64,000 nucleotides of DNA from Bradyrhizobiaceae bacterium. Lineage in GTDB: Bacteria; Bacteroidota; Ignavibacteria; Kapaibacteriales; Kapaibacteriaceae. The notes under the pieces are model-generated. The model ran no database searches and was not told the origin of the DNA. It worked only from the letters and a program-made list of their open reading frames with translations. The position numbers and the translations under genes were made by a program. The stretch lies in assembly GCA_024103135.1 (NCBI GenBank), contig JAGFIZ010000087.1:1-64000 (forward strand). Reading direction: 5' to 3'. Positions 4,723 through 61,480 of this stretch are shown piece by piece. Positions within the stretch are counted from its first letter, which is position 1. The number at the start of each line of letters is the position of its first letter.

Positions 4723-5073
4723 CTAGAACACCCGTAACGTAACCACGAGTGGAATTGCCGATGCTACAACAAGAAGCGTTGCCTTGAGGCGACGCTTCTT
4801 CATCATTAGCTGCGCACTATCAACACGTCCCGCGGTGCCAGCCATGGCAAACTCAAGTCCGCCACACACGATACCAAACAACAACGCAACGATCGCTGCC
4901 ATCGAGGGCACGAAGACGGCCGAGACAACGGCAAGGATCCACACCCATCGTCGGTAAGCCTTGCCCCGACGTTCATCGAAATACTCAACGACCGTCCTGC
5001 TTGTGAAGTAAGCAACTCCAAGCAAGATCGGCATGGTGATGATGAGCGTATTGTCAAGCACCGCAGGAATCAT
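4723..5073 (-). CDS. Small integral membrane protein
   Basis: 116 residues with about three hydrophobic helices (NTLIITMPILLGVAYF; WILAVVSAVFVPSMAAIVALL; ATLLVVASAIPLVVTL) separated by basic loops (DERRGKAYRR, KKRRLK). No family recognised. The start at 5073 overlaps the 3' end of the CDF transporter by 20 nt, so the two are probably translationally linked in the cdsA-CDF operon. Confidence 0.65.
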   Translation of the reverse strand: MIPAVLDNTLIITMPILLGVAYFTSRTVVEYFDERRGKAYRRWVWILAVVSAVFVPSMAAIVALLFGIVCGGLEFAMAGTAGRVDSAQLMMKKRRLKATLLVVASAIPLVVTLRVF

Positions 5074-6001
5074 TCAGGTTAGTGGATTCAATCTGGATGG
5101 TTGCATGGCTAACGCGATACTTCACGTTCAACACATCCTTAACCCGGGCTATCATCGTGTCGGAATGCTCCTCCGTAACCACATGCACGGTTGCACTCAA
5201 ATTGTCCTGACTCAACTGCCACACATGCACGTCGTGGACGTCGATCACCCCTGGTATGGTGGTAAGGTGCTCCGTTAGCTCCGTTACGTCAATCTCTTCG
5301 GGTGCTGACTCCATCAAAATGATCGAAGCCTCCTTGATCACGCGGAAGGCGCCACGCATGATCAACAATGCGATCACCAGACTCAACACAGGATCAACCC
5401 AGGTCCAGTCGGTCAGCAACAGGATGATTGCTCCGATAATGACTCCCGCACTCGACATCAGGTCAGTGAGCACATGCAGGTAGGCACTCCGCGTGGTTAT
5501 GTGCTGTGACTTCTGCAGATACCACGCACTAATGCCATTGGCGATGAAGCCGACGATGGCTACGTAGAGCATTTCGTGTGCGTGGACGTGTTCTGGCGAC
5601 GAGAAGCGTTCCACCGCTTCGATCATGATAAAGATGCACATCCCCACCAGGATGAAGCCATTGGTAAGGGCGGCGATGACTTCGAGCCGACGCAAGCCGA
5701 AGGTGTATCGCTCGCTATGCTGCTCCCTGTTACGGGCAGCAATGCGCAAACCAAAGTAGGCGATCAACAACGACGCAAGGTCAACAAATACATGACCCGT
5801 ATCGCTGAGCAATGCCAGACTGTTCGAGATTATGCCACCAATAAACTGTACCAACAACACAACGGTTGTCAGGACTATCGCTATGCGAATCGGTCTGATG
5901 TCGGCATGCTGACTGATGTGGTGATGATGGTGGTGACCATGCCCATGACCGTGTTCATGTCCATGGTCATGCGAACCAGGCGTATGAATGTGAAGCAGCA
6001 C
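5054..6001 (-). CDS. Cation diffusion facilitator (zinc efflux) transporter
   Basis: 315 residues. CDF proteins export Zn2+ and related divalent cations against protons. The N-terminus is an unusually His-rich tail (DHGHEHGHGHGHHHHHH), followed by six helices. The metal site is visible as SDTGHVFVD in TM2 and HVLTDLMSS in TM5, and the cytosolic C-terminal domain contains IDVHDVHVWQL. The start is a GTG at 6001, the only one possible because the upstream cdsA stop codon lies in the same frame 3 nt earlier. Co-transcribed with cdsA. Confidence 0.92.
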   Translation of the reverse strand: MLLHIHTPGSHDHGHEHGHGHGHHHHHHISQHADIRPIRIAIVLTTVVLLVQFIGGIISNSLALLSDTGHVFVDLASLLIAYFGLRIAARNREQHSERYTFGLRRLEVIAALTNGFILVGMCIFIMIEAVERFSSPEHVHAHEMLYVAIVGFIANGISAWYLQKSQHITTRSAYLHVLTDLMSSAGVIIGAIILLLTDWTWVDPVLSLVIALLIMRGAFRVIKEASIILMESAPEEIDVTELTEHLTTIPGVIDVHDVHVWQLSQDNLSATVHVVTEEHSDTMIARVKDVLNVKYRVSHATIQIESTNLNDSCGA

Positions 6002-20349: not shown

Positions 20350-20495
20350 ATTAGGACCTCACGGTAATCATTGCGGAGGCTATGTCCACACACATTCCTA
20401 CGGTATGCATGGTATGCATGGTGTGCGTGGCGTGCATGGTATGCATGGTGTGCATGGTGTGCACGGCGTGCACGGTGTCCGCATCACGATGCTCG
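20350..20495 (+). pseudogene. Relic of the 3' end of a second DUF4143 ATPase gene
   Basis: This stretch aligns with the last ~30 codons of the intact ATPase gene (22452-22542): shared words include CTCACGGTAATCA, GGCTATG and CACACAC. It ends in VRITMLGI-stop against VVPITMLGA-stop in the intact gene. The GVH codons near the end have expanded into a 9-bp repeat. Everything upstream of it has been lost. Followed by copy 1 of the 300-bp repeat, exactly as the intact gene is followed by copy 2. Confidence 0.75.
20402..20480. repeat. 9-bp tandem repeat, about 8.7 copies
   Basis: Units are GGTATGCAT or GGTGTGCAC-like, eight full copies and a partial. In the frame of the ATPase relic they read Gly-Met/Val-His repeats, so they are an expansion of the GVH codons present once in the intact ATPase gene. 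Confidence 0.85.
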
Positions 20496-20529: not shown

Positions 20530-20830
20530 CTCCCCACCGCGAATTGCGTCGAGGGATTCGTCGCCACGGAAACTATCGCCCCCTGCTGCCATAACGCTTT
20601 GCACAACCATCGCGTCGGCGTTGTCACACTACGTATGCTTCGCACCACTACACTCACACATCACTCCACACACTCACGTCATGCATGCCGGGCGGGAGAG
20701 TGCCATGTTCCGAGCTGACCCATTGTACTGGTCAAAAGCGGACAGGAGGAGTGTGTATGCTGGTGCCTGCGGGACTTTGGCGGCGGCGGCGGGGGGAGGG
20801 CCCGCAGGGATAGTAGGGGGCTTTGAGTTT
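20530..20830. repeat. Direct repeat copy 1 (301 bp) upstream of the DUF4143 ATPase
   Basis: Nearly identical to 22572-22871, from CTCCCCACCGCG to GGGGGCTTTGAGTTT. It contains GTTCCGAGCTGACCC, GGTCAAAAGCGGACAGG, a GGC trinucleotide run and an AGGGGGCT octamer at 20815. No convincing gene is read in either strand. Confidence 0.9.
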
Positions 20831-21050: not shown

Positions 21051-21252
21051 TTCTCTTGAATTCAGAGCATAGTTTCTCCCGAGTTCAGAGCAGTATTTCT
21101 CCCCCATTCGCCATCGTTTCGCCACCAGCTAGGGGCTTGTTTAGCCTTTTCTGAGAGATCATTTTCTCTACATTCGTGGAGTTATTCTCTCTACATTCGT
21201 GGAATTATTTTCTCTATATTCGTGGAATTATTTTCTCTGCATTCAAGGCATT
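21051..21252. repeat. 23-bp tandem repeats upstream of the ATPase gene
   Basis: Four good copies at 21161-21252 with core TTTCTCTACATTCGTGGA, and about three diverged copies at 21051-21120 (TTCAGAGCA versions). The unit length is not a multiple of three, so this is not coding. It ends 16 nt before the ATPase start codon, so copy number or bound factors could affect its expression. Confidence 0.8.
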
Positions 21253-21267
21253 ATTTTTCTCACACTT

Positions 21268-22542
21268 ATGCTCAGCTACGTTAATCGCCTTGTTGATCAA
21301 GAACTTAGAGAGATGCTTGCAAGATCTGGCGCAGTCGTCATCGAAGGTCCAAAAGCCTGCGGGAAGACGCTAACTGCCAGACAACTTGCGCATAGTGAGG
21401 TTCGGGTCGACGCAGATCCAACCGTACGGACATTGTTGAGCACCTCACCTGCGATTGTCCTTGAAGGTCCAACGCCGCGACTGTTTGACGAGTGGCAGGT
21501 GGTGCCTACTCTCTGGAACGTAATCCGTCATGCCGTGGACGATCGGCAATCCACAGGACAGTTCATCCTCACTGGGTCTGCAATGCCGGCGGACGATGCG
21601 ACGCGTCACTCCGGAGCCGGTCGGTTTAGTCGACTGCGAATGCGCCCCCTAACCAGTCTCGAGTCAGGCTTATCCAACGGATCGGTCAGCATTCAACATC
21701 TTGCAACGGGCAGCGTAACGCTTGCACTACCGCCCACAGAGCACTCACTAACAGACATCGTCGATGTCATTTGCGTAGGGGGCTGGCCAGCAAATCTCGG
21801 CAAGCCCAAGGATCAGGCAATCCGGAGTGTACATGAGTATGTTGACGAGATCACGCGGATTGACATCGCGACGTATGAAACTGGCCAGAAGCCCCGCGAC
21901 CCAGAACGCATTGCTGCCGTGATCCGTTCGATCGCTCGCGGAATAGGATCAGCAATCAAGACCACCACCATTACCAAGGACGTTAATGGCACTGAGGGCA
22001 TCCACGGTACCGTTGTTTCGCAGAAGACAGTCAGTACATACCTGGAAGCAACCTCCAAGGTGATGATCCTGGAACATCTACCTGCATGGCGGACACACTT
22101 ACGATCCCGAGCCATCCTTCGGAATTCTCCGAAGTTGTACTTCGCCGATCCATCTATCGCTGTAGCAGCATTGCGAGCCACACCGAAGGGGCTGTTGACC
22201 GACACTGCCTTGCTGGGACAGCTCTTCGAGAATCTTGTGATTCGTGACTTGTTGGTCTATGCACAGCATATTGACGCAACTGTTAGCTTCTACCGCGACA
22301 GCAACGGTCTGGAGGTGGACGCCGTAGTGGAGCATACCGACGGTGCGTGGCAAGCATTCGAGGTCAAGTTGAGCATGGAAGCTGTCGACGCCGCTGCTGC
22401 CACACTGCTGAACTTTGCTGCCACCGTCGACACATCCAAACGCGGTGAACCCAAGGCCCTCACAGTAATCACCAGCGTGGGCTATGCCTACACACGTCCC
22501 GACGGTGTACACGTTGTCCCCATCACGATGCTAGGTGCCTGA
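21268..22542 (+). CDS. AAA+ ATPase with DUF4143 domain
   Basis: 424 residues. Start at 21268; an ATG at 21199 lies in the 23-bp repeats and is unlikely. Order: AAA_14 ATPase (Walker A GPKACGKT at residue ~29, Walker B LFDEWQ, sensor region ILTGSAMP), winged-helix-like middle, C-terminal DUF4143 (LYFADPSIAVAALRAT, LFENLVIRDLLVYA, FYRDSNGLEVDAVVE, AFEVKLS), which looks like a PD-(D/E)xK-type nuclease fold with E-V-D and E-V-K residues. The family is widespread, usually orphan, function unproven; links to defence or toxin systems have been proposed. It sits between 300-bp direct repeats. Confidence 0.9.
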   Translation: MLSYVNRLVDQELREMLARSGAVVIEGPKACGKTLTARQLAHSEVRVDADPTVRTLLSTSPAIVLEGPTPRLFDEWQVVPTLWNVIRHAVDDRQSTGQFILTGSAMPADDATRHSGAGRFSRLRMRPLTSLESGLSNGSVSIQHLATGSVTLALPPTEHSLTDIVDVICVGGWPANLGKPKDQAIRSVHEYVDEITRIDIATYETGQKPRDPERIAAVIRSIARGIGSAIKTTTITKDVNGTEGIHGTVVSQKTVSTYLEATSKVMILEHLPAWRTHLRSRAILRNSPKLYFADPSIAVAALRATPKGLLTDTALLGQLFENLVIRDLLVYAQHIDATVSFYRDSNGLEVDAVVEHTDGAWQAFEVKLSMEAVDAAAATLLNFAATVDTSKRGEPKALTVITSVGYAYTRPDGVHVVPITMLGA

Positions 22543-22571: not shown

Positions 22572-22871
22572 CTCCCCACCGCGAATTGCGTCGAGGGATT
22601 CGTCGCCACGGAAACTGTCGCCCCCTGCTGCCATAACGCTTTGCACAACCATCGCGGCGGTGGTGTCACATAACGTATGCTTCGCACCACTACACTCACA
22701 CATCACTCCACACACTCACTTCATGCATGCCGGGCGGGAGAGTGCCATGTTCCGAGCTGACCCATTGTACTGGTCAAAAGCGGACAGGAGGAGTGTGTAT
22801 GCTGGTGCCTGCGAGACTTTGGCGGCGGCGGCGGGGGAGGGCCCGCAGGGATGGTAGGGGGCTTTGAGTTT
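22572..22871. repeat. Direct repeat copy 2 (300 bp) downstream of the DUF4143 ATPase
   Basis: Matches 20530-20830 with a handful of substitutions. With copy 1 it brackets the ATPase gene at 21268-22542. Carries an AGGGGGCT octamer at 22856. Confidence 0.9.
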
Positions 22872-51514: not shown

Positions 51515-51880
51515 AGCGGCGAGGTGTTCACGGTCATTGTACGCACACCGCGCCCATCAAGACACGTACGGCCATTGCATTCGCGCCGTAAGCAGCAAGG
51601 CTCTCGCACTCACTGCATACGCGCCTTATCTGGCGAGGTCCTCACGATCATTGCCCTCACACCGCGCCCATCAAGACACGTACGGCCATGGCATTCGCGC
51701 GTTAAGCCGCTAGACTCTCGCACTCACTGCATACGCGCCCAATCTGGCGAGGTGTTCACGGTCATTGCCCTCACACCGCGCCCATCGAGACACGTACGGC
51801 CATTGCATTCGTGCGGTAAGCCGCTAGACTCTCGCACTCACTGCATACGCGCCCAATCTGGCGAGGTCAGGACAATCGTA
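51515..51880. repeat. 114-bp tandem repeat, just over 3 copies
   Basis: Units start at 51515, 51629, 51743 and 51857 (partial), each beginning with a GGCGAGGT word and containing ACACCGCGCCCATC, CGTACGGCCAT and CACTCACTGCATACGCGCC. The unit is 38 codons, so a 227-codon frame stays open through it, but that is a consequence of the period. Confidence 0.9.
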
Positions 51881-52991: not shown

Positions 52992-53144
52992 CGTTGATCA
53001 ATGCACTGGTATTGGCGTGTAATCACGTGTCCTCTTATCAAACAACCATTGAGTGTACGAGCTGACGACGGTAACATACGAGGACTGTTGGTTTCATGCA
53101 CACTGTTAGTGGCGGACAGTCACGACCACGTTCACAGGATAAGA

Positions 53145-53430
53145 ACCAACGTACTGGCCAAGGTAACGGCAACGTTCACACGGGACTAATCAATGTACAG
53201 GTAAAGGTATCGGCAACGTTCACAACCGATTAACCATTACTGGTCAGGGTAATGGCAACGTTCACACGGGACTAATCAATGTACAGGTCAAGGTAACGGT
53301 CACGTTCACAACCGACTATCCATTACTGGTCAAGGTAACGGTCACGTTGACACGGGACTAATCAATGTACAGGTCAAGGTAACGGTCACGTTCACAACCG
53401 ATTATCCATGGTACTGGTAAAGGTCACTGT
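53145..53430. repeat. 86-bp tandem repeat made of two ~43-bp halves
   Basis: The word GGGACTAATCAATGTACAGG recurs at 86-bp steps (53183, 53269, 53355). Each 86-bp unit has two related halves, one ending ACACGGGACTAATC and the other ACAACCGATTATCC, both containing CAAGGTAACGGTCACGTTC or close variants. Sits upstream of the UbiA-like gene on the minus strand; no coding frame is evident. Confidence 0.85.
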
Positions 53431-55725: not shown

Positions 55726-56055
55726 AATAGTGCCGGGGTGTGAACACCCCGGCATGAAATGATGCTTTACGTGGAAAATGCCAACAACAGTGCCGGGGTG
55801 TTCACACCCCGGCACTGTTTCATGAACAAATCCGAAAGGCATGTTCGGTGCTACAAGGACTAAAGTCATAACAATCAACGAGTTACCCAATTGAGTGAAA
55901 AAATAGTGCCGGGGTGTTAACACCCCGGCACTGTACTTAGGTATTTCGCACCAAGTACCACTTTCAGTGCCGGGGTGTTCACACCCCGGCACTGTTCTTA
56001 GGAGTTTCGCACCAAGTACCACCTTCAGTGCCGGGGTGTTCACACCCCGGCACTG
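55726..56055. repeat. Palindrome array 1 (five 26-30 bp palindromes, ~59-61 bp period)
   Basis: Imperfect palindromes with stem GTGCCGGGGTG/CACCCCGGCAC start at 55729, 55788, 55905, 55965 and 56026; a slot at ~55847 is empty, so the period is 59-61 bp. Centre orientation varies: GTGTTCACAC or its reverse GTGTGAACAC, or the perfect GTGTTAACAC. Bases 55726-55997 are about 93% identical to 58819-59090. The spacers are similar to each other, which is unlike a CRISPR. Confidence 0.92.
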
Positions 56056-56127
56056 ACTTGGCGACAGATTCAATCAGACAGTTAGGAGAAATTGAGGTGC
56101 AGCCGAAGATTCAACATCACAACCTGC

Positions 56128-56149
56128 ATCCCCGCTTTCGCGGGGATGG
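56128..56149. repeat. 9-bp stem hairpin between BNR gene and palindrome array
   Basis: CATCCCCGC, loop TTTC, GCGGGGATG. No T tract, so not a clear terminator; it lies downstream of the BNR-repeat gene on the minus strand. Confidence 0.6.
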
Positions 56150-56201
56150 CGTAGCGAGGGACCTGGAATGACCGTGGCATGAATGCAGCATGTACAGAAT
56201 G

Positions 56202-58531
56202 CTACCAGCTGCTGAGAACGAGGATGGTCATCTGTGTTGCGCCACTATCACTGATTGCTGAAACGTGATACACGCCCGGAGTCAGTCCTGTGGTGGCAAG
56301 TAGCTGTGGTCGCCCTCGGGATACACTGAGAGTGCAAAGCACCTACCATTGATGTCAGTTGCCGACGCTTCCGAGGCATTGATTGCGCCAACATCTACCA
56401 TCGTTCCCACGACTACAGCACGCGCTTCATGCTGTGGGCTTTCCGCTCTGTGTTCGGGAACATCGGACGGCACCCCTGGTCCCGTGATCAGGTAGTTATA
56501 TCGTATACCGCCAGCGAAGTATTGATTGTTACCTAGACAAGTGAATGAACTTAGTCGGAGAATGTTCTGTTTGACTGAACCACAACGGTCGAGTTCATAC
56601 CATGTGGCATAGGGAGTCGACGATACTTTCACGCCAAACTCATTCACGCAGACCCCAACACCATGATCGACAACCAGCTTCATGATTGGAGCAGTCATCA
56701 TAGGGTTGAATCGTAATCCGTCTATACTGGCAACCTGGTGCGTTGAAGGATTGTACCGCACAACAGTTGAACGCAATCCAATCCAAATGCTCGTGTCGTC
56801 GACGAATAGTATTGTAGCGCCGTATCCTACGTCGGTCTTGATAAGGTCGGTTATGTCGGTCGTGTGGATTTGATTCGCCGTTACGTCCCACGCTATGATG
56901 TGCGACGTTTGCGGGATCCAGTTTGTATCTGTAACATGATACATCGAATACACCGTGTTATGTCTTACAAACGGCTTGGTAACAACATCATTATGAGCAT
57001 CGTTTGGCAGTGGACAGACCGTGATCTCGCCCAGTTTGTTGAGCGTCATGATTTTGCCATTACGTTTACCACTATCGCTTGATCTTCTTACGCTGGAGAA
57101 CAAAACAAACTCGCCGCCTACGATGCCCCCTTCAATAGCCAGAAAGTTGGTCTTGAATGCGGTGTCGACAAACATTCGTTCGGAGAAACTACTTCCCCAA
57201 TCCGTCGACAAGTAAACAGATCCACTATCAGCGCTTACAAGGATTGAACTACCTGCCACGGCGATTGACCAACAGGTTGATGGCATCGTAGCTATCTCCT
57301 CCCAAGTCTCTTCTTTGTTCGTACTGCGTACAAGTTCTGTTTCTGCTACTTCATTGCCAACTGCGTATCTCCATTGTTGAAGGCCATACAATATTCCATC
57401 TGAGGTGTCAGCCGCTACTAAGCATTGCTGTACAAGTTCTGGAGAGCCGTAGCGGGCATAGTACCTTGAAGGAGCACCGAGCACCATAGTGTCAGGATGT
57501 AGAGTATCAGAGGTTTCGAGGTGCACACACGAAAGCATCACACAACGTTCTGGGTCTGAGATGTATAGGCGCATTGTTGAGTCGGCGTCAAGGCAAAGCG
57601 CTTGCGGATGAATAGTAGAGGCGGTCATACCGTGCAGATAGTATGCCGATGAATCCCAGGTTGTGCCCCAATCGTCAGTCCAATACAGATTAAAATGCCG
57701 TTCGTCATAAATCGGCGTGATAAACCCAGTACAGTACACCCGATTCCCTAAATGCGAAACACACGAGAGTGCATCTGCTTCTCTTAGTTTCTGTGAAGAA
57801 TAGGACTTGATTTTCTTTCTTGCCTTGACTAGTCGACCGTTGTTCGTCGTTAACAGTACTTGCGTCTTGTAACAGGACAGCACAAGGATTGAGTCGTTAA
57901 CTCTATAACAGGCAGCAAAATCGTCTGTACTGTCAAAAGGCGTGCGTTGCCATGACTCTCCTCTGTCGGTGGTGTGCACCATGACTCCACGACGGCCTAT
58001 TGCGGTTAACTCGCCTTGATGATAGTCCAAACCTCTGAACTGTATTCCCGCTTCCGAATAGAGTGGTCGTTGATTGCCCTTGACAAGATCGATCAAGTAA
58101 ACAACGCCATTGTCCGAACAAGCAACAACACTGTTGTCGTCCAGACCAACCATGGCTGTGATTACATCTTCAATATCGGTAAGTGATGACCACGTTACAC
58201 CGCCATCAGTACTTTGGTGGATTGTCCCATCCATGCACCCTACGAGGATCGTTGTTCCTGCCTTGGCAATTGCCACTATGTCAGAACATGTACCGATGTC
58301 GTACTGCTCAATCTCTTTTGCTGCATCAGACAGCTTCACTACGGTACCGTTAGACGAACCAACCAGCCAATAGTCGCCGATTTGTAAGGGGGCTGTCCAC
58401 ACAAATCCTATATCACGCTGACCTACCCTTTCCATGGTCCACCCGTCTGCACATAGCACCATCACTGGAAGGTACAACATGCCAAGAACGGTAAGAACGA
58501 CCCTGCCAATCATTGCTTTATAAGTACTCAT
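56202..58531 (-). pseudogene. BNR/sortilin-like repeat T9SS protein with a 3' frameshift
   Basis: The frame from ATG 58531 (GGAG 6 nt upstream) reads 749 codons to a TGA at 56282. Signal peptide (VVLTVLGMLYLPVMVLCADG), then repeated blades with DGGVTWSS, DRGESWQR, DDWGTTWDS, DWGSSFSE, the Asp-box pattern of BNR/Ycf48-like propellers. Near the end it reads TDINGRCFALS; the -1 frame from there continues LSVSRGRPQLL, TGLTPGVYHVSA and ILVLSSW to TAG at 56202, a perfect T9SS tail. One indel between about 56300 and 56340 thus cuts off the sorting signal. It could be a real loss, phase variation or a sequencing error. Confidence 0.85.
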
Positions 58532-58758
58532 AGCGAACTCCACATCACTCTACAGTATTGCAAAAACGTTTCGGCGGAGAGTTGCTTTGCTGATTCCGCG
58601 TAATCTATCGTCTTGATTCTAACGCTCCAAAGGTTCGAGCAGTTGGAAGTACAGGTGTCACCCACACGATCTTGGTTGTTGCATTCATGTGACAGCCTAT
58701 CCGACTTCCCATAATCGCAATACTCAATCACCCGACTTCTGAATTGCGATGTAAACAA
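58528..58758 (-). CDS. Possible small Cys-rich protein (weak)
   Basis: 76 codons with five Cys (YCDYG, ECNNQ, DTCTSNCS, QYCR) ending in a TGA that overlaps the ATG of the BNR gene. No signal peptide or known family. The overlap would couple translation, but the frame may be chance. Confidence 0.25.
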   Translation of the reverse strand: MFTSQFRSRVIEYCDYGKSDRLSHECNNQDRVGDTCTSNCSNLWSVRIKTIDYAESAKQLSAETFLQYCRVMWSSL

Positions 58759-58818
58759 AACTCCGTCTCACAGGCTTGGTTACGACCAAGAGCGTTAGGA
58801 TCCCTACCCTACCGCATC

Positions 58819-59090
58819 AATAGTGCCGGGGTGTGAACACCCCGGCATGAAATGATGCTTTACGTGGAAAATGCCAACAACAGTGCCGGGGTGTTCACAC
58901 CCCGGCACTGTTTCATGAATAACTCCGAAAGGCATGTTCGGCACTACAGGGGCTAACGTCATAACCTTCAACGAGTTACCCAATTAAACGAGAAAATAGT
59001 GCCGGGGTGTGAACACCCCGGCACTGTACTTAAGTATTTCGCAGCAAGTACCACTTTCAGTGCCGGGGTGTTCACACCCCGGCACTGTTC
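58819..59090. repeat. Palindrome array 2 (four palindromes), near-copy of array 1
   Basis: Palindromes start at 58822, 58881, 58998 and 59058, the same spacing as the first four of array 1, including the empty third slot. With array 1 it brackets the BNR gene as 272-bp direct repeats. Lies upstream of both the BNR gene (minus) and the methyltransferase gene (plus). Confidence 0.92.
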
Positions 59091-61314: not shown

Positions 61315-61330
61315 AGACCGATGTTATCCT

Positions 61331-61480
61331 AGAGTAGCTATTCACGGGATGCTATTCCAGAGCAGTTGTTCCTAAGCTGTTTTCCTAATCTGCTATCCCA
61401 GGGTAGCTATTCAAGGGGTGCTATTCCAGAGCAGTTGTTGCTGAGTAGTTGTGCCTGAGCTGCCATTCCTGATCTGCTAT
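61331..61480. repeat. 69-bp degenerate tandem duplication at a convergent junction
   Basis: Two copies beginning AGAGTAGCTATTCA (61331) and AGGGTAGCTATTCA (61400), each with GCTATTCCAGAGCAGTTGTT and several internal GCTATTCC words. Runs into the stop codon of the next minus-strand gene. Confidence 0.75.

Follow-up and report, generated by a model that had tools for sequence, protein, structure and literature searches.

The window, by which is meant the whole stretch of 64,000 nucleotides analysed here, contains two arrays of short palindromes (55726-55997 and 58819-59090) that bracket a single gene. As originally predicted, the two arrays form a direct repeat of 272 bp with 94% identity, the copies being 3093 bp apart. 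Nine palindromes of the window match GTGCCGGGGTGTKMACACCCCGGCAC with at most one mismatch in a search that permitted up to three, and none is expected from 100 shuffles. The original prediction had called these palindromes imperfect; they are real and near-perfect, each possessing 10-bp core arms, usually extended by AGT/ACT, around a 2-nt centre. It had also closed the left array at 55997 and had missed a fifth palindrome at 56028-56053, the array reaching 56053.

The palindromes were located by pattern match and are given no strand, nor are the arrays. The left array (55730-56053) consists of five palindromes spaced 60, 116, 61 and 61 bp apart. Palindrome 1, GTGCCGGGGTGTGAACACCCCGGCAT, lies at 55730-55755 and is followed by a short spacer of 38 bp (55754-55791, minus strand) that faces outward, that is, away from the long spacer. 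Palindrome 2 (55790-55815) and palindrome 3 (55906-55931) enclose the long spacer of 94 bp (55814-55907, plus strand), beyond which come an outward short spacer of 39 bp (55930-55968, plus strand), palindrome 4 (55967-55992), a second 39-bp short spacer (55991-56029, plus strand) that is a tandem copy of the preceding one, and palindrome 5 (56028-56053). The right array (58823-59085) is oriented as the left one and has four palindromes, at 58823-58848, 58883-58908, 58999-59024 and 59060-59085, with spacings of 60, 116 and 61 bp. Its long spacer (58907-59000, plus strand) shares 86% identity with its counterpart on the left and at most 63% with any other. The wide gap in each array had been read as an empty third slot; no palindrome has been lost there, the position being occupied by a distinct conserved spacer of 94 bp with homologues of 93-95 bp in other arrays. 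Folded as single-stranded DNA, a window array gives a z-score of -13.4, with its palindromes paired with each other.

The bracketed gene (56282-58543, minus strand) encodes a BNR/beta-propeller protein of 753 amino acids, of which a close homologue was not found in five congeners (best identity 31%). Its original description as a BNR-repeat gene of the type IX secretion system (T9SS) holds for the BNR/beta-propeller part; an in-frame T9SS tail was not detected by Pfam or NCBIfam. A T9SS-like C-terminal tail, LATTGLTPGVYHVSAISDSGATQMTILVLSSW, does follow the gene in another reading frame (window 56200-56330), which points to a frameshift close to the end of the gene or to an assembly error. Other repeats are present as well. 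A palindrome resembling CGTC-type REPs, ATCCCCGCTTTCGCGGGGAT, occurs near the arrays at C5 and C22 (window 56128-56147; L037:7044-7061), and a degenerate relative of it lies inside the C121 bracket. An unrelated direct repeat without palindromes (20530-20802 and 22572-22844; 273 bp, 96% identity) has an AAA_14/DUF4143 protein encoded between its copies (21199-22542), and tandem repeats with periods of 114, 86, 14 and 9 bp are found at 51518-51877, 53108-53409, 61322-61478 and 20397-20477, respectively.

The genome-wide search for the palindrome that the original prediction had proposed covered 2.71 Mb in 137 contigs and returned 43 palindromes, grouped into 12 arrays and distributed over nine contigs, with zero matches to a reversed-pattern control. 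Exact copies make up 36 of the 43 and the other seven carry one mismatch; copies with two or three mismatches, though permitted, number zero. The palindromes are 22-30 nt long, two to six occur per array, and their start-to-start spacing is 60-61 bp in 18 cases, 115-117 bp in 12 and 127 bp once, at C10. All arrays are positioned between main ORFs, except for a 14-bp overlap with the end of a predicted ORF at C22; small ORFs read through the arrays, and several arrays begin 11-33 bp past a stop codon. The family has the properties of REP sequences, which are repeated, mostly intergenic palindromes of 20-50 nt. A tetranucleotide tag at the foot, sought in 14-nt flanks, was rare or absent (GTAG in 4 of 86, CGTC in 0 of 86), the feet being mostly (C/T)AGT on both sides; the family thus lies outside the GTAG and CGTC superfamilies and is REP-like in the wider sense. 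Among 59 relatives, five of them congeners, the family is absent, with only stray chance matches at three mismatches.

Spacers fall into two main classes, 38-39 bp (n = 18) and 93-95 bp (n = 12), with a single spacer of 105 bp. Long spacers are homologous between loci and share short conserved blocks (CTAA, TCAA and GTTA), yet identity between unrelated loci is only about 40-63%; the short spacers are likewise homologous between loci. On either side of the long spacer the short spacers face away from it, C10 being the exception, and their orientation contrast amounts to 396 versus 150 ± 28 in shuffles (shuffle maximum 246). Full arrays are consequently built as inverted repeats and resemble a compound REPIN. 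The complete form, exemplified by the right array of the window, reads palindrome, short spacer, palindrome, long spacer, palindrome, short spacer, palindrome; the most frequent version consists of three palindromes with a short spacer at one side only. This layout is that of REPINs and BIMEs, in which two inverted palindromes around a spacer can fold as a single hairpin. The orientation of the palindromes themselves cannot be read directly because they are self-symmetric. Inverted centres had been offered as a sign of insertion in both orientations, a weak argument given that the centre dinucleotide varies freely (TC 20, GA 14, TT 4, TA 3 and GC 2 among the 43 copies); two orientations are better backed by the outward short spacers.

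Palindromes and spacers differ sharply in conservation. Between loci the palindromes are about 99% identical, with approximately 7 of 860 non-central positions changed, whereas the spacers are only about 50% identical, with the lengths of the long spacers kept. The sole recurrent departure from the consensus is one stem mismatch, present in seven copies and always in a palindrome between a long and a short spacer. Selection, homogenisation or recent exchange of palindromes are candidate causes of this contrast. A structured long spacer was considered and rejected, RNAalifold giving zero consensus pairs, and so was an RNA family, the matches in Rfam being only to sub-threshold long-hairpin models, mostly miRNA.

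Evidence for insertion comes from the array at C116, where a xerD-like gene and an oxidoreductase-like gene (names assigned by sequence inspection) lie 293 bp apart with the array between them. Without its array of about 203 bp the gap would measure about 90 bp, and among the congeners it is 91 bp long in G005, about 31 bp in both G001 and G003, and only about 18 bp in G004. By this comparison, C116 appears as one clean empty site in the congeners, relative to which the array has evidently been inserted. The genes flanking the window locus are about 17 kb apart in G005 and in another relative orientation, so the window site cannot be read as empty, and at C81 the sequence downstream of the array has no match at the same place in congeners, so that this locus yielded no empty site. 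Paired array copies agree as far as the outer palindromes and diverge past them, and the palindromes therefore appear to bound the mobile unit.

Half of the arrays (6 of 12) form three direct-repeat pairs with members 1.7-5.1 kb apart, at C5 (the window), C27 and C121, and the members of each pair are each other's closest relatives. At least three such close pairs among 12 random sites would be expected with p = 0.0014. The suggestion that one array had been duplicated with the gene lying between is borne out in that pair members are closest relatives, but beyond the palindromes the sequences are unrelated, which indicates that the element was copied and no larger segment; segmental duplication was rejected on the same unrelated flanks. 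Other bracketed genes code for a dioxygenase-like protein, whose T9SS tail is weak, and for two large proteins that are probably located at the surface; in one of these two, a Por_Secre_tail exceeds the Pfam cut-off.

The window has no Y1 transposase, in line with the original statement that a local RAYT is lacking, but the genome does have one, directly beside another array. Its Y1 (IS200-like) genes comprise one clear member, of 201 amino acids on contig C10 (L036:1398-2003), and one other weak match. The C10 enzyme scores 43.8 bits against Pfam Y1_Tnp (cut-off 23) and matches the NCBIfam REP-associated tyrosine transposase NF047646 with E = 7e-21 and 74.6 bits, below the equivalog cut-off of 80. 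Its motifs, NHFH, FQ and YIHANP, show the features of a RAYT/TnpAREP protein, namely HUH and a single catalytic tyrosine with Y---NP (class 2). Among published subclasses it fits TnpAY1 subclass 2.1 / RAYT group 1 best, as judged by motifs, those of that group being NH[YF]H, FQ and Y[IV]HxNP (PMC6006769). The RAYT start codon (ATG) follows the C10 array at a distance of 92 bp; this array is present only upstream of the gene and is atypical in its 127-bp spacing and diverged spacers. The arrangement is that of a REPtron, a RAYT with adjacent repeats that are probably cognate.

RAYT homologues with 31-46% identity are present in 10 of 23 genomes of the family, the source genome included, and palindromes with GCCGGG- or CCGGG-type stems, of a sequence particular to each genome, adjoin the RAYTs of several relatives. 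Genome-wide, TGCCGGG..CCCGGCA palindromes number 54 in G003 and 43 in G009, against 0 and 1 in controls. The association is not uniform: several relatives carry RAYTs but few palindromes of the GCCGGG pattern, and G001 has 32 palindromes, yet a RAYT homologue was not found in its assembly, which is 80% complete. A geometry shared with G009 was rejected, the palindromes there being mostly single or 82-111 bp apart and having a different asymmetric tail. Many of the distant homologues in Flavobacterium and Patescibacteria have palindromes at both sides of the gene. The palindromes around the RAYT homologues of Flavobacterium have the sequence CCTAACAGGTTTnnAAAACCTGTTAGG and frequently come in pairs 60-79 bp apart (L101, L105, L108, L109, L113, L127, L141 and L144, near 4840-5000 and 5580-5710).

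Several known systems are similar in part. In the REPINs of Pseudomonas fluorescens SBW25, palindromes are likewise paired in inverted orientation with constant spacing (71 and 110 bp, compared with 60 and 115 bp here), the ends are conserved and the spacer varies; the elements also form tandem clusters, each RAYT has a cluster next to it, and the spread is intergenic (PMC3116915). Unlike in SBW25, a unit here has up to six palindromes and spacers of two classes, the family is small, with 43 copies, and identity among the long spacers has fallen to about 50% without a comparable change in the palindromes. TIRtrons (TIRYT) also combine a RAYT-like gene flanked by palindromic repeats lacking GTAG with moderately abundant repeat families occurring as dimers or clusters (PMC3733652), although here the array is only upstream of the gene. 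The TnpAREP/BIME system of E. coli shares the Y1/HUH enzyme, intergenic palindromes in opposite orientations and the REPtron layout (PMC8266576), and the recurrent stem mismatch recalls the E. coli REP bulge. The GTAG foot is absent here, however, the enzymes are 22% identical over 137 aligned positions, and the E. coli subclass has DHLH, WE and YIHYNP in place of NHFH, FQ and YIHANP (PMC6006769). REP-like sequences were not found with subclass 2.1 in a published survey (PMC6006769), whereas a palindrome family adjoins the gene here, the subclass being assigned by motifs only.

Other explanations of the arrays have been weighed. Repeats of about 28 bp at a spacing of about 60 bp recall a CRISPR array or a CRISPR-like memory, a reading to which we assign next to no credence and which was rejected: the spacers are homologous between loci, the repeats are dispersed over 12 loci, the match to Rfam CRISPR-DR29 (25.6 bits) is below the gathering threshold of 39, and the spacers gave zero matches to phage, plasmid and viral-contig sequences in place of the unique foreign-derived spacers of a CRISPR. 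The original view that related spacers set the arrays apart from CRISPR is confirmed, and of the two observations it had named as contradicting a mobile element, an array confined to this locus and spacers matching phage or plasmid DNA, neither was made. It is also unlikely that the arrays are selected host features, whether they bind a chromosomal protein or act in RNA as hairpins that protect transcripts or terminate them, with a functional spacing and only ancient mobility. The near-invariant palindromes beside drifted long spacers of constant length, the confinement of the single change to one position in the module, the starts shortly past stop codons and two window palindromes that are terminator-like on the minus strand would all suit such a role. 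Known REPINs, however, keep their ends and vary their spacer (PMC3116915), so that the contrast requires no host role; the family occupies only 12 places in 2.7 Mb and is absent from 59 of 59 relatives, as is the array from the congeners at C116. Terminator-like sites, five versus 3.6 ± 2.1 in shuffles, show no excess, and simple terminator arrays were rejected as an explanation.

The direct-repeat pairs raise another prospect, that a circle carrying a gene and one array crossed into a resident array, or that genes were lost by the reverse event. The close spacing and mutual relationship of the pair members, the BNR gene lacking a close homologue in congeners and the probable T9SS export of some of the bracketed proteins are compatible with such an exchange, but local copying of the element also yields pairs, and an allele with a single array or without the gene was not seen, the window locus being rearranged in G005. 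Local copying is the simplest cause of the pairs; cassette exchange is improbable as the principal explanation, but could coexist with REP/RAYT-type mobility.

The arrays are, with high probability, non-autonomous mobile palindromic elements of the REP/REPIN/BIME type, with the RAYT-like Y1/HUH enzyme on C10 as the likely partner. A mobile element of this kind had been proposed originally, and the 43 copies in 12 arrays, the empty site in congeners and related spacers with no foreign match support it. At the level of sequence, the reading draws on the family and its architecture, on an array inserted where congeners have none, on the position of another array next to the only clear RAYT and on the association of RAYTs with palindromes in relatives. 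Mobilisation by the C10 enzyme is suggested by adjacency, co-occurrence and analogy with TnpAREP (PMC8266576), and would involve recognition of the palindromes, single-strand cutting and the local copying behind the direct-repeat pairs. The module comprises a palindrome, a 94-bp spacer and a palindrome, plus at least one outward 60-bp unit (a 38-bp spacer and a palindrome) on one or both sides. When its strand is single, probably as lagging-strand template, the palindromes would form hairpins, single-stranded GTGCCGGGGTGTnnACACCCCGGCAC being the candidate substrate. The enzyme would then cut beside an outer hairpin and rejoin the single-stranded module elsewhere, often nearby, and additional 60-bp units may arise by tandem duplication. 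A bolder proposal, to which we give little weight, is that an enzyme of subclass 2.1 type maintains the compound 60/115-bp module and that recombination at paired modules, bracketing genes for exported proteins, leads to the gain and loss of these genes.

This type of mobile DNA is itself already known, and what is unusual here is the regular composite layout with its drifting spacers. We conclude that the family is a new composite form of this type, marked by the absence of a GTAG or CGTC tag, by modules that reach six palindromes and by an enzyme whose motifs resemble those of subclass 2.1. The arrays widen the range of REP/RAYT-type elements to a lineage that has exported proteins of the T9SS type, with tag-less repeats beside an enzyme that matches, by its motifs, a subclass reported to lack REPs. 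Frozen palindromes alongside drifting spacers of fixed length lend themselves well to the question of how the REPs of one genome stay alike, and the direct-repeat pairs around single genes offer a testable route for the gain or loss of accessory genes.
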